Positions 1-26,989 of a stretch of 29,121 bases of DNA are shown one piece after another. The notes under the pieces were generated by a model. It saw only the letters and a list, made by a program, of their open reading frames with translations, was not told the DNA's origin and ran no database searches. Source of the stretch: Betaproteobacteria bacterium. Its GTDB lineage: Bacteria; Pseudomonadota; Gammaproteobacteria; Burkholderiales; SG8-41. The DNA lies in assembly GCA_025356695.1 (NCBI GenBank), contig JANXSE010000113.1, forward strand, positions 1 to 29,121, read 5' to 3'. The translations under genes were made by a program, and so were the position numbers. How positions within the stretch are numbered: position 1 is the first letter of the stretch; each line of letters opens with the position of its first letter.

Positions 1-104
1 GCAACCGCCTCGCTGCGAACGCTGCGCTCGCTGCCGCAGCCCTGCCCGATTGGCCCACCGCAGTGCAACGCTGGGCCGCAGCCTTAGACCGGCTCGCCGC
101 ATGA
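1..104 (+). CDS. C-terminal end of a probable glycosyltransferase (partial)
   Basis: From position 3 a frame is open from the window edge to a TGA at 102-104. It encodes about 33 residues, rich in Ala and ending PDWPTAVQRWAAALDRLAA. This Ala-rich tail with a 'W...A..L' ending resembles the C-terminus of family 4 glycosyltransferases, but the catalytic domains lie outside the window, so the family is an inference. Its stop overlaps the ATG of the following methyltransferase (ATGA, 101-104). This implies translational coupling and a shared operon. Confidence 0.5.
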   Translation, partial: NRLAANAALAAAALPDWPTAVQRWAAALDRLAA

Positions 105-1026: not shown

Positions 1027-2013
1027 TTATCTAATGCCCTGGTTCGGTTTACCGGCGGATCCTGATTTCGCCCGCCTCCGCGCAACCGGTTTTTCGGGCT
1101 TGCGGCTTGCCGAAATATCGAATGCGCCGAGATCAGATAACGCGTTGGTTTCGGCAACCAGTATCTGCGATATTTCCTCAACGGCTGCTGTGCGCCTGTA
1201 CTTGGTCGGATTCGCCAGATACAGCATGCGGTGAAAATCGCCGTCAGCGATGGGGCAGGCAGCGATAGTGCCGGCGCGCAGATCTTCGTGAAACACCGAG
1301 ATCGGCAGCGCCGTCACACCGGTGCCGCGCAGCAACACACGGCGGATCGCCTCGATCGCGCCGACTTCGATCTGAATGGTGGGTTTGAGGTTGACGCGCC
1401 CCAGCCTGTCTTCAATGATCGCGCGCACCGCTGCCGTCACAATCAGCGGCGTTTCCGCAAGCTCCGCCATGGTGATGAATTTGCGCGCAGGATCGGCCTG
1501 CGGTGGATACATCAGCACGATGGGCTCGGACACCAGCGGCCGCAATGTCAGCGCGCGTGATGCAGGCGGGTTCATCAAAATCGCCAGATCGATCTGCCCC
1601 GCCAGCAGCGCATCGAACAGGTTTGTGCTGTAGCCCTCGACGACGCGCAACGCAACTTCGGGACAGTGCTGCCGGGCACGCTCAATCGTGCCGGGCAGCA
1701 GCAAGGGGCCCAGCGTTGGCGGCATGCCGAGCACCACGCTGCCGCGCGGCACTTCCTTGCGTACCCGCATTTCTTCCTTCAGCAGCGTGATCTCACGATT
1801 AACACGCTGGCAGTGCTCGAGAAATTGCGCGCCGGCGGCAGTCAGCCGCACGCCGCGCGCATGCCGGACCAGCAAGGGCATGCCGATTTCGTTCTCCAGC
1901 AAACGCACCTGGCGGCTGAGCGCCGACTGCGCCACGCCCAATTGATCGGCAGCGAGCCTGACACTGCCAGCATCAGCGATGCGAACGAAATAACTGATAC
2001 TGCGCAGATCCAT
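1027..2013 (-). CDS. LysR-family transcriptional regulator
   Basis: The protein has 328 residues starting at the ATG at 2013 (MDLRSISYFVRIAD). This start matches the usual LysR N-terminus; a longer frame to 2067 adds residues without family similarity. The winged HTH covers about residues 1-60, with the typical block AADQLGVAQSALSRQVRLLENEIG. The co-inducer-binding domain follows from about residue 90 (VVLGMPPTLGPLLLP, then a second lobe around IVTAAVRAIIEDRL). The subtype resembles NAC/CysB-like regulators of catabolic genes. It is transcribed away from the selenoprotein gene run across a 207-bp gap containing a perfect 11-bp inverted repeat. LysR proteins commonly control such a divergent neighbour, so it is the likely regulator of the locus. 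The last 40 or so residues are basic and low in complexity. Confidence 0.92.
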   Translation of the reverse strand: MDLRSISYFVRIADAGSVRLAADQLGVAQSALSRQVRLLENEIGMPLLVRHARGVRLTAAGAQFLEHCQRVNREITLLKEEMRVRKEVPRGSVVLGMPPTLGPLLLPGTIERARQHCPEVALRVVEGYSTNLFDALLAGQIDLAILMNPPASRALTLRPLVSEPIVLMYPPQADPARKFITMAELAETPLIVTAAVRAIIEDRLGRVNLKPTIQIEVGAIEAIRRVLLRGTGVTALPISVFHEDLRAGTIAACPIADGDFHRMLYLANPTKYRRTAAVEEISQILVAETNALSDLGAFDISASRKPEKPVARRRAKSGSAGKPNQGIR

Positions 2014-2220
2014 GGGCGGGACGGTTTTGGCTGAGATTGCGCCACAGCATACTACGTTGCGGACCAATCGTGGCAGAGCGATCTAATTTTGTTATACCTG
2101 TGTTCGCCCGTCCACTAATTGTGGACGGGCGGCTGCGCACCTACAATCTTTGCGATCAAGCACGTCACCGCCCGCGCAACAAAAAAACGGGTGCAACATC
2201 CGCACAAAGGAGGCGCAGGA
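2014..2220. promoter_or_regulatory. Divergent control region with perfect inverted repeat
   Basis: This 207-bp gap separates the divergent LysR gene and the first selenoprotein gene. It contains a perfect inverted repeat: an 11-bp arm CGCCCGTCCAC at 2105-2115, a TAATT spacer, and its exact reverse complement at 2121-2131. No T-run follows on either side, so an operator or 5'-leader hairpin is more likely than an intrinsic terminator. A TATA-like hexamer (TTATAC, 2092-2097) lies just upstream, but no convincing -35 element is spaced correctly. A strong Shine-Dalgarno AAAGGAGG (2206-2213) lies 7 nt before the ATG at 2221 and fixes that start. The sequence supports the repeat and the RBS; the promoter position is a guess. 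Confidence 0.55.
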
Positions 2221-2865
2221 ATGCCGCAACGCTTGCAGGGAATTTCAGACGAGGAGGCCACGGGCGCGGTCAAGGAAATCTTCGACTCGTCCAACCAGTT
2301 GCTGGGGCGCACCGCCAACCTCGTGCGCATCCTCGCCCACAGCCCCAATCTTGCGCGCTGGTTTCTGCCGCTGGTGGCAGCAGTGCGCCAGCCGAATGCG
2401 GGCGCGGTTTCCGATGTGCGGTTGCGCAATCTCGCCGTGCTGAAAACATCAACGCTGAACGGCTGTCGATACTGAACGGAACACAATCGGGTGCTTGGTC
2501 AAGCACTGGGACTGACGGACGCCGAGTTCGACGCGCTACAGAGCGACGATTACCGGGAAAGCCCGTTGTTCAACGAGCGCGAAAAAGCGGCGTTGTGGTG
2601 GGCTGCGGAAATGACGCAGAACACCGCCAAAAGCAACAAGGCGGTATGGCAGGAAGTGCGGCGCCTCTTCAGCGACGCCGAGATCGTCGAGATTTCGCTC
2701 AATGCCGGCCTGTTCGCCATGATCAACCGGCTCAACGACTCGTTCCAGACCGAACTCGAAGCGCCGGAATACAACCGGCGGCAGCACGGCGCGGTCGGTG
2801 TCACCGTCGATGCGCTCACTGCCTACGCCTGCCGCATCTGCGCGAATATGGGCGGTGCAAAATGA
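2221..2865 (+). CDS. AhpD-like selenoprotein 1 (CMD family, CxxU motif)
   Basis: The gene reads as one frame of 214 residues from the ATG at 2221 to the TGA at 2863-2865, passing through an in-frame TGA at 2473-2475 (residue 85). It belongs to the carboxymuconolactone decarboxylase/AhpD fold, whose redox members use a CxxC plus His motif. Here the motif is N-G-C82-R-Y-U85-T-E-H88, so selenocysteine replaces the second, attacking Cys. Similarity continues after the TGA (REKAALWWA, EIVEISL, NRLNDS), matching the paralogue at 8192. A SECIS-like hairpin with a GGUC loop starts 14 nt after the UGA. The C-terminus carries a further C204-R-I-C207 pair absent from the paralogue, possibly resolving cysteines. 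The gene leads the operon and overlaps Bug receptor A by ATGA. Likely role: thiol/selenol peroxidase or disulfide reductase; substrate unknown. Confidence 0.88.
2490..2507 (+). promoter_or_regulatory. SECIS hairpin of AhpD-like selenoprotein 1
   Basis: Downstream of the UGA at 2473-2475, GTGCTT (2491-2496) pairs perfectly with AAGCAC (2501-2506) around a GGUC loop (2497-2500). A G-U pair at 2490/2507 extends the stem. The loop starts 21 nt after the UGA. As I recall it, the E. coli fdhF SECIS also presents GGUC at its apex, recognised by SelB. The paralogue at 8472-8485 keeps the loop and spacing with a different but still paired stem. Confidence 0.82.
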
Positions 2866-3833
2866 AGTGCTTCGTAAAAAGCAGCGTCGCGATCCTTGCC
2901 GGTGCCCTGCTGAGCACCGGCGCCCACGCGCAGAACTATCCGGCAAAATCCATTCTGATGATCGTGCCGTTACAGGCGGCCAGCGCCGCCGACGTTACGC
3001 TGCGCATCGTCGCGCAAAAAATGTCGGACAGCATGGGACAGCAAATTGCCGTCGACAATCAGACCGGTGCGGCCGGCATGATAGGCGCCGAAAAAGTCGC
3101 GCGCTCAGCACCCGACGGTTACGTCATCGGCGGATTTGCCGACAGCATCGTGAACTTTGCGCCGAATCTTTATCAGAAAGTCCCCTATGACCCGATTGCG
3201 AGTTTCGATCCGGTCAGCATGGTTGCCGGCGTGCCGTGGGTGATGGTGGTGCATCCGTCGCTGCCGGTGAAAAACGTAAGGGAATTTATCGCACTGGCCA
3301 AGGCAAAGCCCGGCACGCTCGACTATTCGTCCGGCGGCAACGGCAGCGCCCAGCACATCGGCACCGAATTGTTCAAATCGGCCACCGGAATCTCGCTCAC
3401 GCATATTCCCTATCGCGGCGCGACGCAGGCGGCATTCGATGTGGTCAGCGGGCGCATCCCGGTAACCCTCGGTGCAATATCGATCATGCTGCCCTTTATC
3501 AAACAGGGCAAATTGCGCCCACTCGCCACGCTCGGCGAAACCCGCTCGGCGCTGCTGCCGGACGTCGCGACGGCATCGGAATCCGGCGTGCCGGGTTTCA
3601 CGATGTCGACCTGGATTGCGATGTACGTGCCGCACGCAACGCCAAAACCGATCATCGCGCGGCTCAATGCCGAAGTGGTCAAAGCCATTGGTGATGCCGC
3701 GGTGCGCGACCGTTTGCTCGCCCTCGGGCTCGACCCAGGCAGTTCAACACCGGAACAACTGGCCGCCAGTACCCGCGACGGACTGGCGCGCATGGGCAAG
3801 GTCATCCGCGAAGCCGGCATCAAGGTGGAATAG
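2862..3833 (+). CDS. Bug/TctC-type periplasmic solute receptor A
   Basis: The protein has 323 residues from the ATG at 2862, which overlaps the stop of the preceding selenoprotein gene (ATGA). A signal peptide is clear: basic MKCFVK, hydrophobic VAILAGALLS, and a likely cleavage after AHA before QNYP. The mature part has Bug-family hallmarks: an N-terminal strand 'YPAKSILMIVPL', the GQQIAVDNQTGAAGMIGAEKVA block, 'APDGYVI', and the second-lobe 'YRGATQAAFDVVSGRIPVTLG'. Bug proteins bind organic acids or other small solutes, normally for a TctAB tripartite tricarboxylate transporter. No TctA or TctB is in the window, so this is an orphan receptor. It has 'LQAASAADV' where most relatives have a glycine-rich 'PGG..D' loop, as a more distant branch might. 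Ligand unknown. Confidence 0.92.
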   Translation: MKCFVKSSVAILAGALLSTGAHAQNYPAKSILMIVPLQAASAADVTLRIVAQKMSDSMGQQIAVDNQTGAAGMIGAEKVARSAPDGYVIGGFADSIVNFAPNLYQKVPYDPIASFDPVSMVAGVPWVMVVHPSLPVKNVREFIALAKAKPGTLDYSSGGNGSAQHIGTELFKSATGISLTHIPYRGATQAAFDVVSGRIPVTLGAISIMLPFIKQGKLRPLATLGETRSALLPDVATASESGVPGFTMSTWIAMYVPHATPKPIIARLNAEVVKAIGDAAVRDRLLALGLDPGSSTPEQLAASTRDGLARMGKVIREAGIKVE

Positions 3834-3877
3834 CGGCCATTAACAACGGCAATTCAATTACGGAAGGAACATCAGGC

Positions 3878-4222
3878 ATGGGCTCTGCTGTGCAACACAT
3901 CACGGACGATACTTTCAACGCCGAAGTCCTGCAGTCGGCAACACCGGTATTGGTCGATTACTGGGCCGAGTGGTGCGGCCCCTGCCAAATGATTGCGCCG
4001 CTGCTCGATCAGGTCGCCGCCGAATATGCGGACAAGGTCAAAGTCGTCAAGGTCGATGTCGACGACAATCAGGAAACCGCCGCCAAGTACGGTATACGCG
4101 GCATTCCAACGCTGATGATTTTTCAGAACGGAGAATTGAAGACAACCAAAACCGGCACAGTGTCCAAATCGCAATTGACCGCACTGATCAACACCACCCT
4201 CGGCATCGGGGAGAGCGTCTGA
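3878..4222 (+). CDS. trxA: Thioredoxin
   Basis: This 114-residue protein has the normal length of a bacterial thioredoxin. The active site is W32-C33-G-P-C36 in the context YWAEWCGPC, with the cis-proline at P77 (GIRGIPTLMIF) and the buried Asp at D27 (VDYWAEWC). The start at 3878 is preceded by a GGAAGGA ribosome-binding site. It is cytoplasmic and passes electrons from thioredoxin reductase to protein disulfides. Its place between two selenoprotein genes, and directly against the next gene, suggests a dedicated reductant for the selenoproteins of the locus (inference). It may be a secondary paralogue rather than the housekeeping TrxA, so the symbol describes the family only. Confidence 0.93.
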   Translation: MGSAVQHITDDTFNAEVLQSATPVLVDYWAEWCGPCQMIAPLLDQVAAEYADKVKVVKVDVDDNQETAAKYGIRGIPTLMIFQNGELKTTKTGTVSKSQLTALINTTLGIGESV

Positions 4223-5044
4223 ATGTTCACTGAAAAAAAAGACGGGGGTGAACTCGCATCGGATGAAGTCCTCAAGCGCCTGATCGCAGAGCGCGGCGAT
4301 ATTTTTCCCGAGTTTCATTTCATCGCCCGCGAACGCCCCGAATCACTGCACTACACGCGACGTGCGCTCGGTTATGTCCATCAGTACGACAATCATGCGA
4401 CGCCGGAGCAGGAACTGTCGGTGCAGATGCGCGAATTGATTGCGCTGTGTCAGCTGTCGTCGCAAGGCGATGACCGGTTTGCCGCCAATCACGTACGCCG
4501 GCTCTATCGTCTCGGCGTCACCAATACGGTAATACTTGAAGCCGCCGAAGCCTACGCTGCGATTTTCGGCAGCTCGACGATTCCGCATGTGGCGCAGGCA
4601 ATCCTCACCGCCAACAGCAGCGACTACACCTACGGCGTGCTACCGCCCGGCGGCGAACCGAAAACGCTTCAGCATTTTCCGGAACTGGCGATGGGCCGCA
4701 CGCGCACCAGCGCTGCCAATGACGGTCTGATGCAATTGCCCGAATGGCAGTACATCGCGAGCATCGATGCAGAACTCGCAAAACGCGCCAGCGAACTGGT
4801 CGATCACTTTCTGCTGCCCGACGGCGCCGGCGACGAATTGCTGGGGCCGGGTCCGCGCGAACTGCTGGCGATCGCCGCGCTTTGCGTGCGCGGCGAAGTC
4901 GACATTGCGACACAACACATCCGCCGCGCCTACGCCTGGGGCATGAACCGGCATCAGGTAATGGAAGCTATTTCGTGCGTACTGCCAATGACCGGCGCGA
5001 TCAGCCTGCAAATCGGCGCGCGCGCGCTGCAGGCAGCGGACTAA
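4223..5044 (+). CDS. Tandem CMD-fold protein lacking the redox cysteines
   Basis: The 273-residue protein starts on the base after the thioredoxin stop (TGA then ATG), implying coupled translation. It has two carboxymuconolactone decarboxylase-like halves, each with the motif RELxA...H[VI]RRxYxxG. In AhpD relatives this region reads G-C-x-x-C-x-x-x-H. Here the first half has G82-D-D-R-F-A-A-N-H90 and the second G224-E-V-D-I-A-T-Q-H232. Both cysteines are therefore missing in both halves, while the last His is kept. This is not the peroxidase version of the fold; it may act as a true lyase or decarboxylase, or as a structural partner of the selenoproteins beside it. The conservation of two intact halves argues against decay. 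Function not assigned. Confidence 0.82.
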   Translation: MFTEKKDGGELASDEVLKRLIAERGDIFPEFHFIARERPESLHYTRRALGYVHQYDNHATPEQELSVQMRELIALCQLSSQGDDRFAANHVRRLYRLGVTNTVILEAAEAYAAIFGSSTIPHVAQAILTANSSDYTYGVLPPGGEPKTLQHFPELAMGRTRTSAANDGLMQLPEWQYIASIDAELAKRASELVDHFLLPDGAGDELLGPGPRELLAIAALCVRGEVDIATQHIRRAYAWGMNRHQVMEAISCVLPMTGAISLQIGARALQAAD

Positions 5045-5079
5045 CACAGGCAACAACTCAAACCTCAGGGGGTAACACC

Positions 5080-6312
5080 GTGGTTCGTCTCGCCGATTTA
5101 ACGCAATGGGAACAGGATCTCGCACTCAAAAAAAACAGTGAGTTCACCGGTTTTCTGCAGGGCCGTCCATGGGTCCGGCCGCCGCCATTGAAAAAACTGC
5201 GCGTCGCGTTGATTACCAGCGCGGGCCTGCATCGCCTCGGTGACCGGCCGTTTAGCGACGGCGCCGGCGCCTCCGAGTACCGCGTGATTGCGGGTGATGT
5301 CAGCGGCAGCGAACTGGTCATGAGCCACCTGTCGTCGAACTTCGACCGCAGCGGTTTCGCCCAGGACGTCAACGTCGTCTTTCCGATCGACCGCCTGAAG
5401 GAACTCGCCGCCGACGGCACAATCGGCGGGGTCGCAGACTTTCACTATGCGTTCAATGGCTCGGCGCCGATCAAAACGCTGGAAGCGCCGTCACGCAAAG
5501 TCGCCACTATGCTCAAAGCCGACCGCGTCGACGCGGTACTGCTCACACCGGTCTGACCAAACTGCACTGGCGCCGTCGGCGTCATCAGCCACTACCTTGA
5601 AGAAGCCGGCATCGCGACTACGCATGTCTCGCTGATCCGCGAACACAGCGAAACACTGCAGCCGCCACGCGCGCTGTGGGTACCGTTCATTATGGGACGA
5701 CCGCTGGGTGTGCCCGGCGACGCAGCGTTTCAGCGCCGCGTGCTGCTGGCGGCACTGCAACTGCTGGAGGCGCCGCGCGGCCCCGTCATCACTGATTATC
5801 CGGAAGATGCACCGCCGGTTGCGAGCGAAGAGACCGAGGGCTACGCCTGTGCCGTGAGCTTTGCCAAATCAGTGCAAAGCGAAGGTATCGCCGGCGCGGT
5901 GCAAAGCGAAATTACCGGGCTGGCGCCGTGGCACGAACTGGCAACACGTAAACACGGCCGCAGCATCGCGACATTAAGCGGGCTCGCCACCGGTGCTGCC
6001 GCAAAATTCCTGACAGACTTCATCGCCGATCTGAGCACACCGCTGTACCGCAGTGATTTAAGCACCGAACTCGCCTTGCGTCTGGTGGTTCAGGATCTGC
6101 GCGCCTATTACCTCGAAGCGGCTTCCGCGCAACCCGGCGCGCGCGCGGCGCTGAATGCGCAAAACTGGCTCTATCAGGAAACCGCGCTCGGGCAACTGTT
6201 GTTCAAGCTGCGCGAGGTTTGCCTGACCAGCGAAAACCAGATGGTGCGAACGTATGGCGGCAAGGGCCTGATCCCGCTTGCGATCGGGCCACGCCCCGGA
6301 GAATGGACCTGA
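5080..6312 (+). CDS. PrdB/GrdB-like selenoprotein 1 (UxxC motif)
   Basis: One frame of 410 residues runs from the GTG at 5080 to the TGA at 6310-6312, through an in-frame TGA at 5554-5556 (residue 159). GTG is chosen because AGGGGG precedes it by 7 nt and the N-terminus MVRLADL matches the paralogue at 8904 (MVRLAEL). Residues 1-240 resemble selenoprotein B of the glycine/betaine/sarcosine/D-proline reductase family: VALITSAGLH, PFSDG, SHLSSNFDRSGF, NVVFPIDRL, VLLTPV, then the catalytic U159-P-N-C162. After the UGA the frame continues in register (SLIREH, PPRALWVPFIMGRPLG). Residues 241-410 form an extra C-terminal region with two cysteines shared with the paralogue (C257, C381). The stop is 1 nt from the Bug B start. 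It is probably a selenol-dependent reductase; the bond it reduces is unknown, and no GrdA, GrdC or PrdA partner is seen. Confidence 0.88.
5569..5583 (+). promoter_or_regulatory. SECIS hairpin of PrdB-like selenoprotein 1
   Basis: After the UGA at 5554-5556, GGCGCC (5569-5574) pairs with GGCGTC (5578-5583), six pairs including one G-U, around a GUC loop (5575-5577). The loop starts 18 nt after the UGA. The paralogue has the same loop and spacing, and its stem differs by compensating changes (5569G-5583C corresponds to 9390T-9404A). Confidence 0.78.
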
Positions 6313-6313
6313 A

Positions 6314-7339
6314 ATGAATCATCCAGGATACGCTTCGATATACAACTACAACTGCGTAAAGCGCCGGGCCAGCGTGCTTGCGGGCCTGCTGACAGCGCTC
6401 GCAACCATACTAGCGGCCATGCCAGGCACAGCGCAGGACTTTCCGATGCGGCCGATCCGTTTCATCGTGCCGTTCGCGCCGGGCGGCGCCAACGACATCG
6501 TCGCGCGCATGATCAGCGTGAAACTCGGCGAACGGCTAGGCCAGCAGATCGTCGTAGACAACCGACCCAGTTCAACCGGCGTGCTTGGTGTTGAGTTGAC
6601 CGTCAATGCGCCGCCCGACGGTTACACGCTGCTGGTCGGCAACACCGTTACCAACGGCATCAATCCGGTTCTGTTCGCGGCCACCAACCGGGTCAATGCA
6701 ACAAAAGATCTCACCGGCGTGTCGATGCTGGCGGCGGTTCCGCACGCGGTAATCGCCAGCAGCAAACTGTCGCCCAACACATTTGCCGAGTTGATCGCGT
6801 ACGCCAAAGCGCGGCCGGGAGAACTCAACTATACGGCGCCGCTCGGCGGCCACCCGCATCTCGACATGCTGGCATTGGCAAACGCGACCGGCATCAAGAT
6901 CGTGCACCTGCCGTCGAAAGGTGCGGGCGAAACGCTGCCCGCCTTGATGCGTGGTGAAGCCCACCTGTCGAACACGAATATTTCGTCGATGATTGGCCCG
7001 CTGCGCGCCGGGCAGATCAAAGCCTATGCGGTGACTTCGGCGCGCCGTGTGCCGGAAATCCCCGAACTGCCAACGTTCGCGGAAGTCGGTTTGCACGGCA
7101 TCGGCAGTCTTAACTGGGTGGCGCTGTTCGCGCCCGTGAAAACCCCGCGCGCCGTCATCGTCAAGCTGCACGCCAACCTCGTCGAGGTTCTGGCACAGCC
7201 GGAGATGAAAGAATTTTTTGCCAAACGGCTGATCCCGCTGCAGGTCAGCAAATCTCCCGAGGAACTCAATGAGTTCGTATTGACCGAAACGCAGCGTTGG
7301 GCGCGCATTATTCGCGACAATAATCTGAAAATGGAATGA
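6314..7339 (+). CDS. Bug/TctC-type periplasmic solute receptor B
   Basis: The protein has 341 residues from the ATG at 6314, 1 nt after the stop of PrdB-like selenoprotein 1. The N-terminus is long for a signal peptide: a polar stretch (MNHPGYASIYNYN) precedes KRRASVLAGLLTALATILAAMPGTAQ, with likely cleavage before DFPMRP. Bug motifs are intact: PIRFIVPFAPGGANDIVARM, GQQIVVDNRPSS, PPDGYTLLVGN, and the second lobe ending near 'WARIIRDNNLKME'. The glycine-rich PGG..D loop that contacts the ligand carboxylate in Bug proteins is present. An internal ATG may be the true start if the extra N-terminal residues are not used. It is an orphan receptor with no TctAB nearby; tight spacing to the selenoprotein gene suggests linked function. 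Confidence 0.92.
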   Translation: MNHPGYASIYNYNCVKRRASVLAGLLTALATILAAMPGTAQDFPMRPIRFIVPFAPGGANDIVARMISVKLGERLGQQIVVDNRPSSTGVLGVELTVNAPPDGYTLLVGNTVTNGINPVLFAATNRVNATKDLTGVSMLAAVPHAVIASSKLSPNTFAELIAYAKARPGELNYTAPLGGHPHLDMLALANATGIKIVHLPSKGAGETLPALMRGEAHLSNTNISSMIGPLRAGQIKAYAVTSARRVPEIPELPTFAEVGLHGIGSLNWVALFAPVKTPRAVIVKLHANLVEVLAQPEMKEFFAKRLIPLQVSKSPEELNEFVLTETQRWARIIRDNNLKME

Positions 7340-7393
7340 CCGCTGGATATTTCCGGCAAGGTTGCCAACCACGCACAACGATAGAGGCTTGCG

Positions 7394-8113
7394 ATGATAG
7401 ACCTGTATTACTGGCCCACCCCGAACGGGCACAAGATCACGATGTTTCTCGAAGAAGCCGGTCTCGATTACACGATCATGCCGGTCAACATCAGCACCGG
7501 CGACCAGTTCAAGCCGGAATTTCTGCGCATCAGTCCGAACAACCGCATGCCGGCGATCGTCGATCACGCACCACCTGACAAAGGTGCGGCAATTTCGGTG
7601 TTTGAGTCGGGCGCTATTCTTTTGTATCTCGCCGATAAAACCGGCAAACTCATTTCAAAAGACCTGCGCGCGCGCACGCTTACTCTCGAATGGCTGTTCT
7701 GGCAGGTTGGCGGGCTCGGCCCGATGGCCGGGCAGAGCGCGCATTTTTCCCATTACGCCGCCGACAAAATTCAGTACGCGATGGATCGCTACCGCAACGA
7801 GACCAACCGGCTCTACGGCGTACTTGATCGCCAGCTTGAGGGTCGCGACTTCATCGCCGGTAATGACTACACGATCGCCGACATGGCTGTCTACCCGTGG
7901 ATCGTGCCGTGGAAGCGCCAGGGGCAAAACATCGACGAGTTTCCGCATCTAAAGCGCTGGCTGGAAGCAATCAGTTTGCGACCGGCCACCGTGCGCGCCT
8001 ACGCGCGTGCCGAACCGTATTCGAGCCAACCCGCCGTCACCGAAGAAGGCAAAAAACTGCTGTTCGGGCAAACCGCCGCCAGCATACGTGCCAGTGCCGC
8101 GACGGCAAAATAA
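7394..8113 (+). CDS. yfcG: YfcG-type glutathione transferase / disulfide reductase
   Basis: The 239-residue protein has the two-domain GST layout: a thioredoxin-like N-domain (about 1-85) and an all-helical C-domain (about 90-205). The N-terminus MIDLYYWPTPNGHKITMFLEEAGLDY is very close to what I recall of E. coli YfcG. It includes the T-P-N-G-x-K motif, in which Thr and Asn replace the usual catalytic Tyr, Ser or Cys. The motifs FLRISPNNRMPAIVDH and FESGAILLYLADKTG (glutathione gamma-glutamyl contact) and FWQVGGLGPMAGQ also match. YfcG-like enzymes bind two glutathiones and reduce disulfides, so this adds a glutathione-driven reducing arm to the thioredoxin in the same gene run. It lies 54 nt after Bug B. 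The C-terminal tail of about 30 residues is not conserved. Confidence 0.92.
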   Translation: MIDLYYWPTPNGHKITMFLEEAGLDYTIMPVNISTGDQFKPEFLRISPNNRMPAIVDHAPPDKGAAISVFESGAILLYLADKTGKLISKDLRARTLTLEWLFWQVGGLGPMAGQSAHFSHYAADKIQYAMDRYRNETNRLYGVLDRQLEGRDFIAGNDYTIADMAVYPWIVPWKRQGQNIDEFPHLKRWLEAISLRPATVRAYARAEPYSSQPAVTEEGKKLLFGQTAASIRASAATAK

Positions 8114-8191
8114 TCGGATCGAGAAAAATATTGCGGCGATAATCGTCAATACACTTTTCATCATCGGTAGAACAAAACGGGGGCAGACATC

Positions 8192-8863
8192 ATGGCAGAA
8201 TCAAAACCGCGCATCCGCATGATCGATCCGGCAACGGCAAGCGGCGATGTCGCCATATTGTTTGACGCCGTGCGCGCGATGCTGGGCCGCGTGCCGAACT
8301 CCTATCGCATCATCGGCAATTCGCCGCTGGTGGCCAAAATGCTGGTACCGTTTAACGCCGTGGTGCAGCGCCAGGGCGCCGGCAGCGTGTTGAGCACGCG
8401 ACTCAAGGAAATGGTGGTGATAAAGACGAGCCACCTGAACGGCTGCAAGTATTGAATGGCGCACAACACGTCGCTAGGTCTGGCGGCAGGCATCACCGAC
8501 GAGCAAGTGGAAGCGATCGGCACCGATGAATATATGGAGTCGCCGCATCTGAATGCGCGCGAAAAAGCCGCCGTGCTGTGGGCCGAGCACGTCACGAAAA
8601 ACACCGCGCGCAGCCGCGACGACGTGTTCGAGATTGTGCGCAAGGAATTTAACGAAGCTGAAATCGTCGATCTGACGCTGGTGTGCTGCTTTTTCAACAT
8701 GTTTAACCGTCTCACTGATTCATTGAAGATGCCGATCGAAATACAAACGGAAGTCGACAAGATCAAGGCGTCAGTCACACTCGACCCGGCGAAAGTGAAG
8801 TCTTATCTGGAAACCGTTGTTGCGAAATGGCCCGCGTCGTTTCCGGCACCCAACGCTGATTAA
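8192..8863 (+). CDS. AhpD-like selenoprotein 2 (CMD family, CxxU motif)
   Basis: One frame of 223 residues runs from the ATG at 8192 (GGGGGC upstream) to the TAA at 8861-8863, through an in-frame TGA at 8453-8455 (residue 88). The redox motif is N-G-C85-K-Y-U88-M-A-H91, equivalent to CxxCxxH of AhpD-type CMD proteins. Homology to the first AhpD-like gene runs across both sides of the UGA: LKEMVVIKTS before it, then REKAAVLWAEHVTKNTA, EAEIVDLTL and FNRLTDS after it. The codon right after the UGA is ATG, so a gene caller could mistake the second half for a separate 135-residue gene. The C-terminal CxxC of paralogue 1 is absent. The gene is followed 40 nt later by PrdB-like selenoprotein 2, repeating the pairing seen upstream. 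Role as for paralogue 1. Confidence 0.88.
8472..8485 (+). promoter_or_regulatory. SECIS hairpin of AhpD-like selenoprotein 2
   Basis: After the UGA at 8453-8455, CGCTA (8472-8476) pairs with TGGCG (8481-8485), including one G-U pair, around a GGUC loop (8477-8480). The loop begins 21 nt after the UGA, as in paralogue 1. Stem bases differ from paralogue 1 but remain paired, which argues for selection on the RNA structure. Confidence 0.8.
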
Positions 8864-8903
8864 TGCGCAATACCGCGTCGTAACTTCTACTGGAGACCAC
8901 ATC

Positions 8904-10145
8904 ATGGTTCGTCTCGCCGAACTTTCCGAATACGAACGCAAACGCGCACTGAGCCGGATCAAAGATCTGCCTGACTTCAACGGCCGGCCGTGGGTCAAGC
9001 CGCCACCGCTGAAAAAGATGCGGCTCGCGATCATCACGACCTCGGGCATCCACCGCGAAGGCGATACGCCGTTTTCGGACGGCGATGCCGCGGCCGAGTT
9101 TCGCGTCATTCCCGGCAATGTGCGCGGCGGTCAACTCGTGATGAGCCATCTGTCGATCAATTTCGACCGCACTGGCTTTCAACAGGATATGAACGTGGTG
9201 TTCCCGATCGACCGCCTCAACGAACTGGTTGCCGATGGCACGCTCGGTAGTGTCGCCGATTTTCATTACGCCTTCATGGGTGCGGCGCCGATTCCATTGT
9301 TGAAACCGCGCGCGCAACAGATTGCCGGCCTGCTCAAGAAAGACAAGGTCGACGCGGTTTTATTGTCACCGGTCTGACCGGCCTGCTCGTGCGCCGTCGG
9401 CGCACTCGGCCACTACCTCGAAGCGGAAGGCATTTCGACCACGCAGATTTCACTGATCCGCGAACACACCGAGGTCGTCAATCCGCCACGCGCGTTGTGG
9501 GTGCCTTTCATCATGGGCCGCCCCTTCGGCGTGCCGAACGATCCGGCGTTTCAAAAGCGCGTGCTGCTCGCTGTATTGAAGTTGTTTGAAGCGCCTGCCG
9601 GGCCGCTGATCGAAAATTATCCGGAAGAAGCGTCGCAACCCGTTACCAGCGGCGCTGAAGAAGAAGTCGAACCGTTCGCCTGCCCGGTCAATTTCAGCCG
9701 CGCACCGACCGATATGAGTCTGGCGGCATCGATCCAGCGTGAAATTGCCGATCTCACGCCCTGGTACGACATGACGCGTGTAAAACGCGGTAACAGCAAG
9801 GCCAGTCTGAGCGGCCTCACGCCGGCCGCCGCAGCGAAATTCGTCACCGATTTTATCGACAATCCGGAAATCACCAGCTATCGCACCGATCTGACGATCG
9901 ATTTTGCATTGCGACTCGCCTGTCAGGACATCCAAACCTATTACCAGGAAGCCGTGGCGGCGCAGCCGGGTGCACGCGCTGCGCTCGAAGTAACCAAATG
10001 GTTCTGGGAGGAGACCACCGCTTCGAAAGCATTTTTCAAGGTGCGCGACATTTGCCTCGCCGGTAACAATGAAATGTTGCGGCGCTTCGGCGGGCGCTAT
10101 CTGGTGCCGCTATCAGTCGCTGCCAGACCGGAGGAATGGTCCTGA
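8904..10145 (+). CDS. PrdB/GrdB-like selenoprotein 2 (UxxC motif)
   Basis: One frame of 413 residues runs from the ATG at 8904 (GGAG 8 nt upstream) to the TGA at 10143-10145, through an in-frame TGA at 9375-9377 (residue 158). It is collinear with PrdB-like selenoprotein 1 along its whole length: MVRLAELSEYER, RPWVKPPPLKKM, SHLSINFDRTGF, NVVFPIDRLNEL, DFHYAFMGAAP, VLLSPV, then U158-P-A-C161-S-C163, then SLIREH and WVPFIMGRPFG. C163 is an extra Cys not found in paralogue 1. The C-terminal region (about 250-413) keeps two shared cysteines, C260 (FACPVNF) and C384 (RDICLAG), and the conserved ending RPEEWS. It closes the plus-strand run and converges on Bug receptor C with a 9-nt gap. It is probably a selenol-dependent reductase of unknown substrate. 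Confidence 0.88.
9389..9405 (+). promoter_or_regulatory. SECIS hairpin of PrdB-like selenoprotein 2
   Basis: After the UGA at 9375-9377, GTGCGCC (9389-9395) pairs perfectly with GGCGCAC (9399-9405) around a GUC loop (9396-9398). This 7-bp stem is the longest perfect one of the four. The loop starts 18 nt after the UGA, as in paralogue 1 and, as I recall, in E. coli fdhF. Confidence 0.83.
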
Positions 10146-10150
10146 CCGAT

Positions 10151-10166
10151 CGCGCTATTCAGCGCG
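10151..10166. terminator. Possible bidirectional terminator hairpin
   Basis: CGCGCT (10151-10156) and AGCGCG (10161-10166) form a perfect 6-bp stem with an ATTC loop. It lies where PrdB-like selenoprotein 2 (plus) and Bug C (minus) converge. An A/T-rich stretch, AATATTATTGT, follows on the plus strand, but there is no clean T-run. The hairpin overlaps the stop codon of Bug C. Confidence 0.35.
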
Positions 10167-11144
10167 AATATTATTGTCTTTGATCACTTTCATCATACGC
10201 GCCGAATCCGCGCGCACGATTTCAATGACTTTGTCCGGGGTGGTGCCAAGCGGATCCATAACCTGTTCCGTGATACGTGCCCTCACGTCAGGCAGTTTGA
10301 GCGCGCTAACCACCTCGCCCTGAATTCTCGACAGAATTTCTTTCGGCGTGTTGGCCGGTGCGAACAAGGCATTCCACGAAGTGAAGTCGAAACCCGCGAC
10401 CCCGGCTTCCTGCATCGTCGGCAATGCCGGCAGAATTGCGTTGCGCTGCGTGCCGGTAAAAGCCAGCGCGCGCAGCTTGCCGGCCTTGATCAGCGACAAC
10501 GGCGTGCCGCCTAGTCCGACGAACAACAATTGCACCTGGCCCGCGGCAAGATCAAGCGTCGCCTGCGCCGCGCCTTTATAGGGCACGTGCGTCATTTGTA
10601 TGCCGGCCAGCGACTCCAGCATTGCCGCGGCAATATGCTGCGGGCTGCCGACGCCGCCAGTACCGTAGTTAAGCTGGCGCGAGCGAGACTTCGCCAGCGC
10701 AATAAAATCCTTTACTGAAGTAACCGGCAAACTCGGATGCACCAGCATCCCGGTGGGAATGGATGCAACCATGCTGATCGGATCGAAACTCTTCAGCGGG
10801 TCGTAGCCGACGGCTGGCTGAATATTCGGCAGAATCGCCATGATCGCGTTGTTAAAACCGCCCAGCACATATCCATCCGGCGCAGCCTTGGAAACACGTT
10901 GCGCACCTATCATGCCGGAGGCCCCGGGCTGATTCTCCACCACCACCTGCTGCCCCAACGACGAAGAAAGTTTTTCAGCGAGTATACGAAATGCAACGTC
11001 CGAACCGGTTCCTGCGCCCAACGGCAAAATCAGCAGTATCGGTTTGCCGGGATAGCTTTGCGCCTGCGCCACCGCGAACGGCAGGATACAAAATCCACCT
11101 GCCAGAATCCCGCCGATAATGCGCCGCCGATTGCGGAATTTCAT
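10155..11144 (-). CDS. Bug/TctC-type periplasmic solute receptor C
   Basis: The protein has 329 residues from the ATG at 11144, chosen because a strong GGAGGGG lies just upstream; the frame extends to 11351 without a better start. The signal peptide is MKFRNRRRIIGG followed by hydrophobic ILAGGFCILPFAVAQAQ, with cleavage likely before SYPGKP. Bug blocks present are PILLILPLGAGTGSDVAFRI, GQQVVVENQPGASGMIGAQRVSKAAPDGYVL and YKGAAQATLDLAAGQVQLLFVG. The glycine loop reads LGAGTGSD instead of the common PGG..D. It closely resembles receptor A in layout (VGYDPLKSFDPISMVA against VPYDPIASFDPVSMVA), suggesting they are paralogues. It is divergent from gor and convergent with PrdB-like selenoprotein 2. 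Confidence 0.92.
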   Translation of the reverse strand: MKFRNRRRIIGGILAGGFCILPFAVAQAQSYPGKPILLILPLGAGTGSDVAFRILAEKLSSSLGQQVVVENQPGASGMIGAQRVSKAAPDGYVLGGFNNAIMAILPNIQPAVGYDPLKSFDPISMVASIPTGMLVHPSLPVTSVKDFIALAKSRSRQLNYGTGGVGSPQHIAAAMLESLAGIQMTHVPYKGAAQATLDLAAGQVQLLFVGLGGTPLSLIKAGKLRALAFTGTQRNAILPALPTMQEAGVAGFDFTSWNALFAPANTPKEILSRIQGEVVSALKLPDVRARITEQVMDPLGTTPDKVIEIVRADSARMMKVIKDNNIRAE

Positions 11145-11225
11145 TGCCCCTCCACAAATTACATTGGCGTCGAGTTGAACCATCCGGTATTTTTCCCCTT
11201 CGGAAGAGCCCGCGGGAAATGTTCC

Positions 11226-11261
11226 TTTACATAGAGGAATTATACGTGCCGCCTCTATAAT
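11226..11261. promoter_or_regulatory. Back-to-back -10 elements in the Bug C / gor gap
   Basis: In the 232-bp divergent gap, TATAAT occurs on the plus strand (11256-11261) and again on the minus strand (complement of 11239-11244). Both lie within or at the edge of an inverted repeat, TAGAGG (11232-11237) and CCTCTA (11252-11257). No consensus -35 is properly spaced for either. This could be a shared divergent promoter with an overlapping operator. The rest of the gap shows nothing clear. Confidence 0.35.
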
Positions 11262-11376
11262 CAACCAGCGCAATCTGTGTTTTGCAACACCGTTTTTTTG
11301 GCAACCGAAAACAGACATCGTTCGTCCCGCCGGGTGATAATCATCGATCATATTTAACGCCGCCTGGAGCCCCCGG

Positions 11377-12723
11377 ATGACTTATGACTACGATCTATTC
11401 ACGATAGGCGCCGGCTCGGGCGGCGTGCGCGCCAGCCGTTTCGCTGCCAACCTCGGCGCGCGTGTTGCCGTTGCTGAAGAGCGTTATCTCGGCGGCACCT
11501 GCGTCAATGCCGGCTGCATTCCGAAAAAACTGTTTTCTTACGCCGCGCATTTTCATGACGACATCGACGACGCCAAAAACTACGGCTGGCAGATCGCGCC
11601 GCCGGCCTTCGACTGGCCGACACTGGTTAAAAACAAGGATCGGGAAATCGCGCGGCTGAATGGCGTGTATGAACGCGTGCTGAAGGGGGCGAACGTCGAG
11701 ACCTTCCGTGCACGCGCCACCGTCATCGATGCGCACACCGTCGAAATGGACGGTCGCCGCGTCACTGCCGCGCATATTCTGCTTGCAACCGGCGGCTGGC
11801 CCGTGAAACCGGATATTCCCGGCGCGGAACTGGCATTCACGTCAAACGAAGCGTTTCATCTGCCGACACTGCCGCGACGCATCGTTATTATCGGCGGCGG
11901 TTACATCGCGGTCGAATTCGCCTCCATCTTCCACGGCCTCGGCGTGGAAACCACACTGGTCTATCGTGGCGATTGCCTGCTCAAATCTTTTGATAACGAT
12001 CTGGGTATTTTTCTGGCCGAACAGATGCGCGCCAAAGGCATCAACATTCTTTTCGAACGTAATATCGCTTCGATTGCGCGCGCTGCCGCGCTGTCGTCGA
12101 CCTTGACCGATGGCAGCGTACTCGAGAGCGATGCCGTAATGCTGGCGACCGGACGCATGCCGAACACCAGGGGCCTCGGACTCGACAAAGCCGGCGTCGC
12201 CACAGACAAGGACGGCGCCGTTGTCGTCGATGCGAATTTTCAGACCAGCGTGCCGTCGATACACGCCATCGGCGACGTCACCAACCGCGTGCTGCTGACG
12301 CCGGTGGCGCTGGCCGAAGGCATGGCGGTCGCCACGCGCTTGTTCGGCAAGGGTGAGCGCACGGTGTCGTACGACAATATTGCGACCGCCATTTTCAGCA
12401 ATCCGAATGTCGGCACCGTCGGTCTGTCGGAAGCCGGGGCACGCAAACGCGGGCTCAACATCACGCTGTTCAAATCGAGCTTTACGTCGCTCAAACACAC
12501 GCTGACCGGCCGCGCCGAAAAAATCCTCATGAAACTCGTCGTCGACCGTGACAGCAACCGCGTGCTCGGCGTGCACATGGTCGGCCCCGAAGCGGGCGAG
12601 ATCATTCAGGGCTTCGCCGTCGCGCTCAACTGCGGCGTCACCAAGCAGCAACTCGACGCCACCATTGGCATCCATCCGACCATGGCCGAAGAATTCGTCA
12701 CCATGCGTGAAGCAGTCTCTTAG
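11377..12723 (+). CDS. gor: Glutathione-disulfide reductase
   Basis: This 448-residue flavoprotein reduces oxidised glutathione with NADPH in the cytoplasm. The N-terminal FAD-binding motif is DLFTIGAGSGGVRASRFAA (about 6-24). The redox disulfide C42-V-N-A-G-C47 is followed by IPKKLF, as in glutathione reductases. The NAD(P)H Rossmann motif is IIGGGYIAVEFASIFHGLG (about 170-188). The second FAD segment IHAIGDVTNRVLLTPVA and the C-terminal H433-P-T-M-A-E-E active-site segment are intact. The length is normal. The start follows a CCTGGAG-type ribosome-binding site. With YfcG upstream and a Kef antiporter downstream it makes the region rich in glutathione functions; it may keep glutathione reduced for the selenoprotein system (inference). 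Confidence 0.96.
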   Translation: MTYDYDLFTIGAGSGGVRASRFAANLGARVAVAEERYLGGTCVNAGCIPKKLFSYAAHFHDDIDDAKNYGWQIAPPAFDWPTLVKNKDREIARLNGVYERVLKGANVETFRARATVIDAHTVEMDGRRVTAAHILLATGGWPVKPDIPGAELAFTSNEAFHLPTLPRRIVIIGGGYIAVEFASIFHGLGVETTLVYRGDCLLKSFDNDLGIFLAEQMRAKGINILFERNIASIARAAALSSTLTDGSVLESDAVMLATGRMPNTRGLGLDKAGVATDKDGAVVVDANFQTSVPSIHAIGDVTNRVLLTPVALAEGMAVATRLFGKGERTVSYDNIATAIFSNPNVGTVGLSEAGARKRGLNITLFKSSFTSLKHTLTGRAEKILMKLVVDRDSNRVLGVHMVGPEAGEIIQGFAVALNCGVTKQQLDATIGIHPTMAEEFVTMREAVS

Positions 12724-12729
12724 CGCAAA

Positions 12730-13683
12730 CTACTCGGGCTTGATGCCGGCGCTCTTGATCACCGCCGCCCATTTTTCCGTTTCGGCTCGTATGTATTTGC
12801 CGAATTCCTCCGGCGTATCGCCGACGACAGTCATACCTTCGGCCAGCATGCGCTCGCGCAGATCCGCGCCCCGCAATGCGTGCGTGATTTCGCCATGCAG
12901 TTTTTCAACAATGGCGCGCGGCGTACCGGCCGGCGCAAGTATGCCGAACCACTGGGTCGCTTCATAACCGGGCAACGTTTCGGCAACCGCCGGTACTGCG
13001 GGCAATGAAACGATGCGCTCGCGCGTGGTCACGGCCAGCGCGCGCAGGCGCCCGCTCCTGACATAAGGCATCACGCTCGGCGGTGACGACATCATCAATG
13101 GAATTTCGCCCGACAGCAGACTGATGAATGCCGGACCGGCGCCCTTGTAGAGTACCTGCGGCATATCGACCTTCGTCGTCACCTTGAGCAATTCCGTCGC
13201 CAGGTGCGGACTGGTGCCGAGGCCGGGTGAACCGAAGATCAGCATGCCGGGCCGCGTGCGCGCCAGCGCAACCAGTTCTTTAACCGTGGTTACCGGCACC
13301 GATGGATGCATCGACAACACATTGGGCCCGACCACCATCTGCGTCACCGCGGCAAGATCGCGCGCGGTGTCGTACGGCAGTTTTTTGAACATGCTTGGAT
13401 TGATCGCCAGCGAAGTCTGCGACAGCAGCAGCGTGTAACCATCAGGCGCGGACTTGGCCACGAAATCAACACCGATCACGCCGCTGGCGCCGGCGCGATT
13501 ATCGATCACCACCTGCTGGCCGAAGGCCTCACTTAGTTTGACCGAAATGATGCGGCCGAGCGTATCGCTGCTGCCCCCGGGCGAGGACGCAATAACGAGG
13601 CGCACCGCGCGCGCCGGATATTGCTGCGCCCCGGTTGTTGCAGCGGACAGCAGTGCCACGCCGAACAGAACCATACACTTCAT
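12730..13683 (-). CDS. Bug/TctC-type periplasmic solute receptor D
   Basis: The protein has 317 residues from the ATG at 13683, which has GGAGG 7 nt upstream; an in-frame start further upstream is less well placed. The signal peptide is MKCMVLFGVALLSAATTGAQ, with cleavage before QYPARA. Bug signatures are clear: VRLVIASSPGGSSDTLGRI (ligand loop PGGSSD), GQQVVIDNRAGASGVIGVDFVAKSAPDGYTLLL, LYKGAGPAFISLLSGEIPLM, and an ending near KWAAVIKSAGIKPE. It lies 57 nt downstream of receptor E in the same direction, probably in one operon with the amidohydrolase, and converges with gor (6-nt gap). Ligand unknown; no TctAB membrane genes nearby. Confidence 0.93.
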   Translation of the reverse strand: MKCMVLFGVALLSAATTGAQQYPARAVRLVIASSPGGSSDTLGRIISVKLSEAFGQQVVIDNRAGASGVIGVDFVAKSAPDGYTLLLSQTSLAINPSMFKKLPYDTARDLAAVTQMVVGPNVLSMHPSVPVTTVKELVALARTRPGMLIFGSPGLGTSPHLATELLKVTTKVDMPQVLYKGAGPAFISLLSGEIPLMMSSPPSVMPYVRSGRLRALAVTTRERIVSLPAVPAVAETLPGYEATQWFGILAPAGTPRAIVEKLHGEITHALRGADLRERMLAEGMTVVGDTPEEFGKYIRAETEKWAAVIKSAGIKPE

Positions 13684-13740
13684 CGGTAATCCTCCGGTTA
13701 CGCGCATCATCCGGGTTAACGCGCGCCCCTGCTACCTGCG

Positions 13741-14706: not shown

Positions 14707-14740
14707 CAATATTCCTTTTCGCCGGACGGCGGTTTAAAAA

Positions 14741-15832: not shown

Positions 15833-16003
15833 CTCTCCCCCTCCATCCATTTGTTGTTGGTGTAAAACTGTTTTCCTGCACGCTACCGCCGGGTCGCCAC
15901 CGGCGTCAAGCAAATCCACCCTGCGATCGGGGTTTGCGCGCGCGAGTACTCAGGCTATGCTGGCGCTTCGTCGTCATTCGTTATACGCGCTGCCGGAAAA
16001 ATC

Positions 16004-25967: not shown

Positions 25968-26429
25968 TCATCCTGCCATCTTCTGCATCGCCTGCTTCAT
26001 CTCGTCCGGCGTGACATCGCGGATGTGCGTGGCGACCGACCAGTGGTGGCCGAACGGATCGACCAGCACGCCGTAACGATCACCCCAGAACATGTCGGCG
26101 AGCGGCATCTTGACGGTTGCGCCGGCATCCACCGCCTGCTTGAAGAATGCGTCGGCGTTTTCGACGTAGAGATGTATCGTCACTGGCGAGCCCTTCAGCG
26201 CCTTCGGGCCGAGCGCGCCCCACTCCGGCATTTCGTCGACCAGCATGACGGCCGAACCGCAGATGCGTATCTGCGCGTGCATGATCTTGCCGTTCGGGGC
26301 CGGCAGGCGCCCGCCTTCCGTTGCATTGAACGCCTTCTTGTAGAACTCGATCGCGTCCGCCGCGCCGGCGCAGACGAGGTGCGGTGTCACCGTGTGCATT
26401 CCTTCGGGTATCGGTTTCACTTGCGACAT
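25968..26429 (-). CDS. VOC-family glyoxalase-like protein
   Basis: This 153-residue protein starts MSQVKPIPEGMHTVTPHLVCAGAADAIEFYKKAFNA, characteristic of PhnB/glyoxalase-like VOC proteins. It continues KIMHAQIRICGSAVMLVDEMPE, VTIHLYVENADAFFKQAVDAGATV and the Trp/Gly motif DMFWGDRYGVLVDPFGHHWSVATH. These are the two beta-alpha-beta-beta-beta units of the fold, with candidate metal-binding His and Glu residues. The reaction is unknown. It is the second gene of the ECF42-linked operon, 53 nt after DGPF protein A, with GGAG upstream of its ATG. Confidence 0.9.
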   Translation of the reverse strand: MSQVKPIPEGMHTVTPHLVCAGAADAIEFYKKAFNATEGGRLPAPNGKIMHAQIRICGSAVMLVDEMPEWGALGPKALKGSPVTIHLYVENADAFFKQAVDAGATVKMPLADMFWGDRYGVLVDPFGHHWSVATHIRDVTPDEMKQAMQKMAG

Positions 26430-26482
26430 GAATGTTCTCCTTGATTGACTCGGCTGGCGGAAGGCTTACCTGTACTGCAGCA

Positions 26483-26890: not shown

Positions 26891-26950
26891 GGTGCTATCT
26901 CCTTGTTGCAACGGTTAATGTTAACGCCGCGTGGCCAGTCTATCTACTCT

Positions 26951-26980: not shown

Positions 26981-26989
26981 ACCAGCCGG

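Follow-up and report, generated by a model that had tools for sequence, protein, structure and literature searches.

A nine-gene operon combining predicted AhpD-like and PrdB-like selenoproteins in a betaproteobacterium

Described selenoprotein systems and the operon

AhpD-like proteins with a CxxU motif and PrdB proteins with a UxxC motif (U, selenocysteine) are known selenoprotein families, as the initial annotation of the DNA studied here had stated. Two ocean surveys, in the portions available, report them as separate families (PMC1088965, PMC2398784). We analyzed a 29,121-nucleotide (nt) stretch of a Betaproteobacteria bacterium (contig JANXSE010000113.1, assembly GCA_025356695.1; hereafter the window), in which two predicted selenoproteins of each family are encoded within one run of nine genes.

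Several operons that hold more than one selenoprotein gene have been described. The section of a 2026 review devoted to them (section 9 of PMC13188914) names grdA-grdB, prdB-prdC, frhA-frhD-hdrA with glpC, Prx/SelW, Prx-like/AhpD-like, SAO and Tso. SAO has six selenoprotein genes and Tso has three, and the sole four-gene selenoprotein operon in that section is frhA/frhD/hdrA/glpC (PMC13188914). SAO and Tso resemble the window in having several selenoprotein genes per operon but differ in the families involved: no Sao family was listed for ten window proteins, and TsoB matched the thioredoxin alone, with 33.7 bits (cut-off 805).

The PrdB-like pair shares a UxxC selenoprotein core with PrdB (TIGR04483) and with GrdB, GrdF and GrdH (PF07355). 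However, it scores only 105.8 and 95.2 bits against the TIGR04483 cut-off of 300, carries a C-terminal extension, and a pyruvoyl partner was found in only one of 24 genomes of relatives. The FarB operon of Cloacibacillus has a GrdB-family selenoprotein in reductive C-X cleavage, but the part of that report available describes anaerobic growth, the partner FarE, which resembles GrdE, and a radical S-adenosylmethionine (SAM) protein (PMC10838667). Neither a FarE-like nor a radical SAM protein is among the open reading frames (ORFs) of the window that were scanned. Two further families are also of the AhpD type, namely NF053654 (YciW-related (seleno)protein; window proteins at 62.8-63.9 bits, cut-off 310) and NF041238 (AhpD-related CFYUT; 27.2-39 bits, cut-off 175). 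Bmp8 (6ohi, 6ohj), a Cys enzyme with reductive dehalogenation chemistry, has the AhpD fold in common with the second AhpD-like protein of the window, at low similarity (36.5 bits).

The initial annotation knew of no described pathway with such a gene set, and the combination is indeed absent from section 9 of PMC13188914. Titles and abstract openings yielded no publication describing an AhpD/PrdB operon; the search did not extend to preprints or to most subscription journals, so prior print is possible. The observed gene run is real, and it is a new kind of selenoprotein operon made of known families. Its nine genes would probably make up a selenium-based reducing system not described before.

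The genes are packed co-directionally into positions 2221-10145 of the plus strand with gaps of -4, 44, 0, 35, 1, 54, 78 and 40 nt. Their order is AhpD1, Bug1, thioredoxin, CMD-like, PrdB1, Bug2, YfcG-like glutathione S-transferase (GST), AhpD2 and PrdB2. The features are as follows; Sec denotes selenocysteine, SECIS the selenocysteine insertion sequence and bp base pairs.

2221..2865, plus strand: predicted AhpD-like selenoprotein 1 (AhpD1), C82-R-Y-U85; TIGR01926 60.4 bits, below the cut-off of 81.8
2473..2475, plus strand: in-frame TGA of AhpD1, predicted Sec, from reading of the frame
2490..2507, plus strand: SECIS-type hairpin of AhpD1 (bacterial SECIS model), loop GGUC, 7-bp stem, 21 nt after the TGA
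2862..3833, plus strand: Bug1, Bug/TctC periplasmic binding protein; PF03401, 234.8 bits
3878..4222, plus strand: thioredoxin, Cys33/Cys36; TIGR01068, 130.4 bits, above cut-off
4223..5044, plus strand: carboxymuconolactone-decarboxylase-like (CMD-like) two-domain protein without CxxC; PF02627 46.9 bits, two stretches
5080..6312, plus strand: predicted PrdB-like selenoprotein 1 (PrdB1), U159-P-N-C162, GTG start; PF07355 36.8 bits, TIGR04483 105.8 bits, below the cut-off of 300
5554..5556, plus strand: in-frame TGA of PrdB1, predicted Sec, from reading of the frame
5568..5584, plus strand: SECIS-type hairpin of PrdB1 (bacterial SECIS model), loop GUC, 7-bp stem, 18 nt after the TGA
6314..7339, plus strand: Bug2, Bug/TctC periplasmic binding protein; PF03401, 181 bits
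7394..8113, plus strand: YfcG-like glutathione (GSH)-dependent disulfide oxidoreductase, GST fold; NF010579 281.3 bits, below the cut-off of 332; PDB chain named YfcG, 3gx0, E 4e-80
8192..8863, plus strand: predicted AhpD-like selenoprotein 2 (AhpD2), C85-K-Y-U88; above cut-off in PF02627 (41.1 bits) and TIGR00778 (32.1 bits); modelled as an AhpD fold
8453..8455, plus strand: in-frame TGA of AhpD2, predicted Sec, from reading of the frame
8470..8487, plus strand: SECIS-type hairpin of AhpD2 (bacterial SECIS model), loop GGUC, 7-bp stem, 21 nt after the TGA
8904..10145, plus strand: predicted PrdB-like selenoprotein 2 (PrdB2), U158-P-A-C161; PF07355 30.6 bits, TIGR04483 95.2 bits, below the cut-off of 300
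9375..9377, plus strand: in-frame TGA of PrdB2, predicted Sec, from reading of the frame
9389..9405, plus strand: SECIS-type hairpin of PrdB2 (bacterial SECIS model), loop GUC, perfect 7-bp stem, 18 nt after the TGA

Selenocysteine sites, hairpins and insertion machinery

AhpD1, PrdB1, AhpD2 and PrdB2 each contain exactly one in-frame TGA ahead of their own stop codon. The initial annotation placed these codons at redox-motif positions, and our analysis agrees: the motifs are CRYU and CKYU in the AhpD-like pair and UPNC and UPAC in the PrdB-like pair. Alignment with relatives revealed continuous homology on either side of each TGA, again as it had described, and under translation table 11 each of the four genes splits into two ORFs, the fragmentation it expected from a standard annotation.

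PrdB relatives were sought in GTDB contigs with a query alignment built from the two window PrdB sequences and three homologues with Cys; 203 were confirmed and the best 80 kept, all of which have a stop at the Sec site (80/80). These loci, together with 30 others (L115-L144) and the window, gave 88 distinct PrdB-like site sequences after removal of duplicates and short segments, and the codon is TGA in every one (88/88). The AhpD site codons of 44 sequences from those loci were 34 TGA, 7 Cys and 3 Ser, a ratio that is not a frequency because many loci were chosen for their TGA. In 50 genomes, before any choice based on TGA, 24 of 30 AhpD matches at E<=1e-40 had TGA, and many more distant matches lacked it. 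Close relatives of AhpD1 (L094-L104, 68-77% identical) have TGA at the site in 11/11 cases.

One betaproteobacterial family had a PrdB match in 47/74 genomes, and all 57 matches carried TGA (one also TAG). An AhpD2 match at E<=1e-50 was present in 19/24 genomes of one alphaproteobacterial family, with TGA in 28/28 matches (one also TAA). A spread sample of 399 genomes from the order of G004, one of the PrdB-holding genomes, contained an AhpD relative (E<=1e-40) in only nine, all nine with TGA, so the AhpD selenoprotein trait is rare at the order level.

The initial annotation had taken a lack of Cys at the TGA positions of homologues to speak against Sec. We found Cys at this column in both families: in PrdB-like proteins P0005, P0031, P0032, P0059, P0066, P0072 and the TauD fusion P0073, and in AhpD2-type proteins with C-E-Y-C or C-D-Y-C instead of Sec (L136, L138, L141). 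At L135 and L137 an AhpD2-type selenoprotein gene stands in tandem with a paralogue that replaces both the motif Cys and Sec (APYSLAHR, ATYSLAHR).

The bacterial SECIS model, as given in the available part of PMC13188914, comprises a loop of 3-9 nt with at least one G among its two leading nucleotides, a 4-16 bp stem, a TGA-loop distance of 16-37 nt and an energy of <=-7.5 kcal/mol. A hairpin had been noted after every TGA, and all four fit this model in loop, stem and spacing. The energies of the hairpins alone were -7.0 (AhpD1), -9.3 (PrdB1), -7.8 (AhpD2) and -11.4 kcal/mol (PrdB2); those of folded 48-nt segments were -10.4, -12.1, -12.0 and -19.2 kcal/mol, respectively. Only 44 of 800 other TGA triplets on both strands of the window are followed by a model hairpin at -7.0 or better.

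The hairpins are conserved among relatives. Of the 34 AhpD-TGA genes, 27 have GGTC at +24..27; each of these also forms a stem of >=4 bp, and the closing pair of their hairpins varies on both sides (TA 22, CG 4, AT 1). The 88 PrdB-TGA genes have GT at +21..22 in 87 cases and a stem of >=4 bp in 63. The paired fractions (0.887 for AhpD, 0.867 for PrdB) were reached by none of 500 codon-column shuffles in each family, a result that is not a strict probability, as the shuffle breaks relatedness. Five of the seven Cys AhpD homologues have neither the GGTC loop nor the hairpin, and three distant Cys PrdB relatives lack GT at +21 and any comparable hairpin.

Some properties of the hairpins count against a Sec-specific signal. 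The minimum-energy fold of AhpD2 is other than the SECIS hairpin, and folding energy is not distinctive: 863, 336, 272 and 87 of 1000 synonymous recodings of AhpD1, PrdB1, AhpD2 and PrdB2 gave folds of equal or greater stability. In AhpD, pair types were no more numerous than in shuffles (66/500 reach the observed number; 5/500 for PrdB). The Cys AhpD of L138 retains a 4-bp stem at the same geometry with another loop, and that of L144 retains GGTC in a hairpin with a larger loop. The distinctive features are loop sequence, fixed spacing and conservation, not overall folding energy.

Could the TGAs instead be nonsense mutations, assembly errors or signs of an altered genetic code? The two fragments per gene under table 11 are what such explanations would predict. 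However, TGA is the codon at this site in all of the PrdB-like sequences above, which come from many separate assemblies, and a SECIS-type hairpin follows each TGA in the window. In addition, five genes of the same operon (AhpD1, thioredoxin, PrdB1, Bug2 and PrdB2) end with TGA as their actual stop codon, so the code is not one that always reads TGA as an amino acid. This normal use of TGA and its family-wide conservation led us to reject an alternative code or pseudogenes, and we consider the whole set of explanations extremely improbable. From the sequence evidence, the four genes are almost certainly real selenoprotein genes with predicted Sec.

The Sec machinery was profiled in 24 genomes carrying a PrdB-like gene, nearly all draft metagenome bins, which represent relatives and not the source organism. 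A selenocysteine tRNA (tRNA-Sec) scoring >72 bits was found in 23 of them, the exception being G004 (best 45.1 bits). The other tRNA-Sec matches listed scored <=48.4 bits, and such searches gave matches in all 14 control genomes too; these low-scoring matches are probably ordinary long tRNAs. We detected selA in 21/24, selB in 21/24 and selD in 23/24 genomes, with all four components in 18/24 and two or three in the remaining six. Of the selD matches, 20/26 contain TGA themselves. In 11/80 loci the PrdB-like gene neighbours either selD or a gene that fuses an oxidoreductase to SelD (selD in L014; also L027, L028, L050, L056, L065, L075, L076, L078, L079 and L080).

Association of the two families in other proteobacteria

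The initial annotation inferred from the window alone that the two families act together, and recurring AhpD/PrdB pairs in other beta- and alphaproteobacteria support this. We examined the neighbourhoods of all 57 PrdB matches of the betaproteobacterial family. An AhpD-family gene lies within 3 kb of PrdB in 15/57 loci, 13 of these 15 with a TGA-bearing AhpD, and directly upstream on the same strand at <300 bp in 9/57. The expected number of PrdB loci with AhpD within 3 kb is 0.52 (AhpD density 1.26 per Mb, 13 genomes; Poisson, relatedness ignored). Among the alphaproteobacterial AhpD2 matches, the loci of 20 of the 28 were examined. PrdB is also present in 10/20, and in 9 of these 10 another Sec-type AhpD (CAYU or CSYU) is located directly upstream of it; L130-L132 of this family share the same set of Sec-type PrdB, AhpD and AhpD2. 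These pair counts are lower bounds because several contigs end inside the locus.

The AhpD type in the upstream place differs: CHYU in betaproteobacteria, CAYU in alphaproteobacteria and AhpD2 itself in the window (CHYU was not in the tree). Because three diverged types occupy this place, we interpret the pairing as repeated coupling, not one inherited block. The locus nearest to the window in content, L232, holds within 5 kb a Sec-type AhpD2 relative (55%), a Sec-type AhpD1 relative (73%), a Sec-type PrdB and a further Sec-type AhpD (CKYU); Bug genes are present too, but the genes of this locus lie on both strands, so it is not one operon. L152 has a Sec-type AhpD, two Bug genes and a Sec-type PrdB lined up on a single strand. 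Functional coupling of the AhpD-like and PrdB-like families is therefore very probable.

Phylogenetic analyses placed PrdB1 and PrdB2 within one betaproteobacterial clade, not resolved as sisters. Tandem PrdB pairs occur elsewhere (L011, L012, L040, L043, L075), as do single PrdB genes. A recent tandem duplication was rejected for the AhpD pair, as AhpD1 and AhpD2 fall in separate tree groups (long branches flagged). Three bins titled Bordetella parapertussis group (L005, L009, L013) fall among uncultured betaproteobacteria in the PrdB tree, and these labels are probably wrong. The alphaproteobacterial loci contain major facilitator superfamily transporters in 10/20 cases. A gene of about 273 codons (c50; L204-L222, e.g. 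L040:4569-5390), which matched no Pfam family at E<=0.01, is found mostly beside a Sec-type AhpD, in 12/20 alphaproteobacterial loci.

Possible functions of the operon

Two genes near the operon bear on its function:

1027..2067, minus strand: LysR-type regulator, PF00126 and PF03466; divergent, 153 nt from the AhpD1 start
11377..12723, plus strand: glutathione reductase, TIGR01424, 610.5 bits, above cut-off

The glutathione reductase gene is cut off from the operon by one Bug gene on the minus strand; its product is a possible electron source for YfcG. Beyond Bug1 and Bug2, three Bug/TctC genes in all lie on the minus strand around it at 10155-14709, followed by an amidohydrolase at 14741-15919. 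Farther along (25968-28240, minus strand), a Sigma-70-like factor with DUF6596 is encoded beside YCII and glyoxalase-domain genes. The CMD-like protein had been described as Cys-less, which is wrong: it has three Cys (76, 221 and 252), though no CxxC. Together, the Bug proteins, the CMD-like enzyme and the LysR regulator suggest that the pathway is inducible and serves one particular organic compound.

Both PrdB-like proteins exceed the PF07355 gathering threshold of 22 bits. The similarity to PrdB/GrdB covers the UxxC core (residues about 26-220), and in the PrdB1 model (predicted local distance difference test, pLDDT, 87.6) about 130 additional residues form a helical region at the C-terminus, past this core. 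One Cys outside UxxC (C257 of PrdB1, window 5848-5850), just before these helices, is invariant in 49/49 rows of alignment A3. Foldseek returned no PDB match to the model at E<=0.001 (best E 7.1e-3, template modelling (TM) score 0.22), and the fold therefore offers no clue to function; a PrdB profile likewise found no chain at E<=0.01 among PDB sequences.

AhpD2 passes the PF02627 gathering threshold of 23 bits, and AhpD1 falls below it (20.1 bits). The AhpD2 model (pLDDT 94.7) has an AhpD fold, with 6k40 as its best match (TM 0.80 by target) and 2prr, 3c1l and Bmp8 6ohi (TM 0.75 by target) among the others. AhpD1 ends in C204-R-I-C207, kept as CRIC in 10/10 AhpD1-type rows of alignment A4. 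This ACRIC tail (CxxC; window 2824-2841), also present in L115-L129 and missing from AhpD2, is a possible second redox pair beside the predicted CxYU site. Relatives of AhpD1 (L115-L118, L243) cluster with luciferase-like and HsaA/HpaH-like monooxygenases, flavin reductase, Gfo/Idh oxidoreductases and Bugs, not every gene in each cluster, which suggests that AhpD1 is tied to aerobic catabolism.

In GrdB and PrdB, a selenolate attacks a carbon with a leaving group and thiols re-reduce the enzyme; AhpD proteins shuttle electrons via CxxC. By analogy, the PrdB-like selenolate (UxxC) would attack or reduce a substrate without the pyruvoyl partner needed by D-proline and glycine reductase. The selenenylsulfide so formed would move on to the AhpD-like partner (CxxU) or be shared between the two, and thioredoxin together with the GSH/YfcG pair would return the electrons; glutathione reductase is encoded close by. 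Induction of the operon probably goes through the divergent LysR regulator. Binding of the substrate in the periplasm is the probable task of the Bug proteins. That the two AhpD-like and two PrdB-like proteins constitute one selenol/thiol reducing system for an imported organic substrate is a reading we favour slightly. Whether its role is reductive rather than merely protective we judge to be evenly balanced. A PrdB-centred reductive step with an AhpD relay is preferred because of family chemistry, the presence of both reductants in the operon and the inducible-pathway genes. The idea of selenolate attack has been applied to fluoroacetate, in the part of PMC10838667 available.

Several observations weigh against one such reducing system. 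No AhpD gene lies within 3 kb at 42/57 PrdB loci, so the AhpD partner is either not obligatory or encoded elsewhere. Bug genes are near 31/57 PrdB loci, with at least 74 Bug matches in 19/20 genomes; because they are so common, their proximity is no evidence of function, and we dropped it as such. A YfcG-like gene (50-53%) is near selenoproteins in few relatives (L117, L120, L132), the window's thioredoxin appears in none of the locus maps of relatives that were printed, and the AhpD-like proteins could equally be peroxidases.

This last point leads to the main rival, peroxide defence, in which both selenoprotein pairs would be thiol/selenol peroxidases guarding the cell, or its oxygenases, against hydroperoxides; thioredoxin and GSH would serve as their reductants, and no catabolic substrate would be reduced. 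The AhpD fold of AhpD2 and a closeness to 'peroxidase-related' proteins speak for this reading, and the company of AhpD1 relatives (the flavin monooxygenases and flavin reductase above) would fit such a guard. However, PrdB/GrdB relatives of known chemistry reduce substrates and are not peroxidases, the Bug proteins, CMD-like enzyme and LysR regulator indicate catabolism of a specific compound, and AhpD1 and AhpD2 are under the TIGR01926 cut-off. We consider peroxide defence unlikely, though a serious contender. A D-proline or glycine/betaine-type reductase, which is what the name PrdB in databases suggests, would explain the PF07355 and TIGR04483 similarity and the conserved UxxC. Its chance is negligible in our estimate, given TIGR04483 scores far under the cut-off and the C-terminal helical region. 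PF09338 (GrdE/PrdA), the family of the pyruvoyl subunit, did not appear among the window ORFs scanned and was missed in 23/24 PrdB-holding genomes (draft bins), G017 being the exception, which further disfavours this candidate.

Reductive dehalogenation or other C-X cleavage is a special case of the reductive step, with Bmp8 and FarB as two precedents by analogy. Sec would act as in thyroid deiodinase, taking a halogen or similar leaving group off an organic acid or phenol, and thioredoxin and GSH would provide the electrons. AhpD2 is related to the debrominase Bmp8 by both sequence and structure (6ohi, as above), and the GrdB-like selenoprotein FarB is a proposed fluoroacetate reductase in the available part of PMC10838667. 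Stand-alone TauD-type dioxygenases lie directly upstream of Sec-type PrdB genes in the betaproteobacterial loci L010 and L013, and in an alphaproteobacterium (P0073) a Cys PrdB-like domain is fused to a TauD/TfdA dioxygenase. However, Bmp8 is no closer than several uncharacterised AhpD proteins (PA0269 is higher, 2ijc 54.2 and 2o4d 53.7 bits), and no dehalogenase or halogenated-compound-specific gene was recognised among the window ORFs scanned. Dehalogenation as such seems rather less likely than peroxide defence. Within the favoured reducing system, a bolder and doubtful proposal is an oxygen-tolerant, pyruvoyl-free selenium pathway, in which the PrdB-like selenolate may cleave a C-X bond (e.g. 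carbon-halogen) of an imported organic acid with the AhpD-like selenoprotein as its dedicated electron relay.

Since 2005, ocean surveys have counted such selenoproteins as 'proline reductase PrdB' (PMC1088965, PMC2398784, in the portions available). That name stands against a gene without a detectable pyruvoyl subunit in 23/24 genomes, and its reaction is to be found. Databases hold this large family mostly as pieces: 110 of the best 120 database matches listed span only about 54-60% of the PrdB-like protein, and reading TGA as Sec restores the family. One protein record (P0102) is missing the stretch around the Sec site of an otherwise continuous PrdB-like sequence, perhaps through an automatic 'intron' at the TGA. 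The recurring pair of Sec-type AhpD and PrdB provides a concrete, testable partner and gene set for finding the PrdB-like reaction. If the oxygen-tolerant pathway is real, it would have gone unseen because gene finders stop at TGA. Uncultured alpha- and betaproteobacteria would then harbour, spread among them, an aerobic proteobacterial equivalent of the reductases that act on glycine, D-proline and fluoroacetate.

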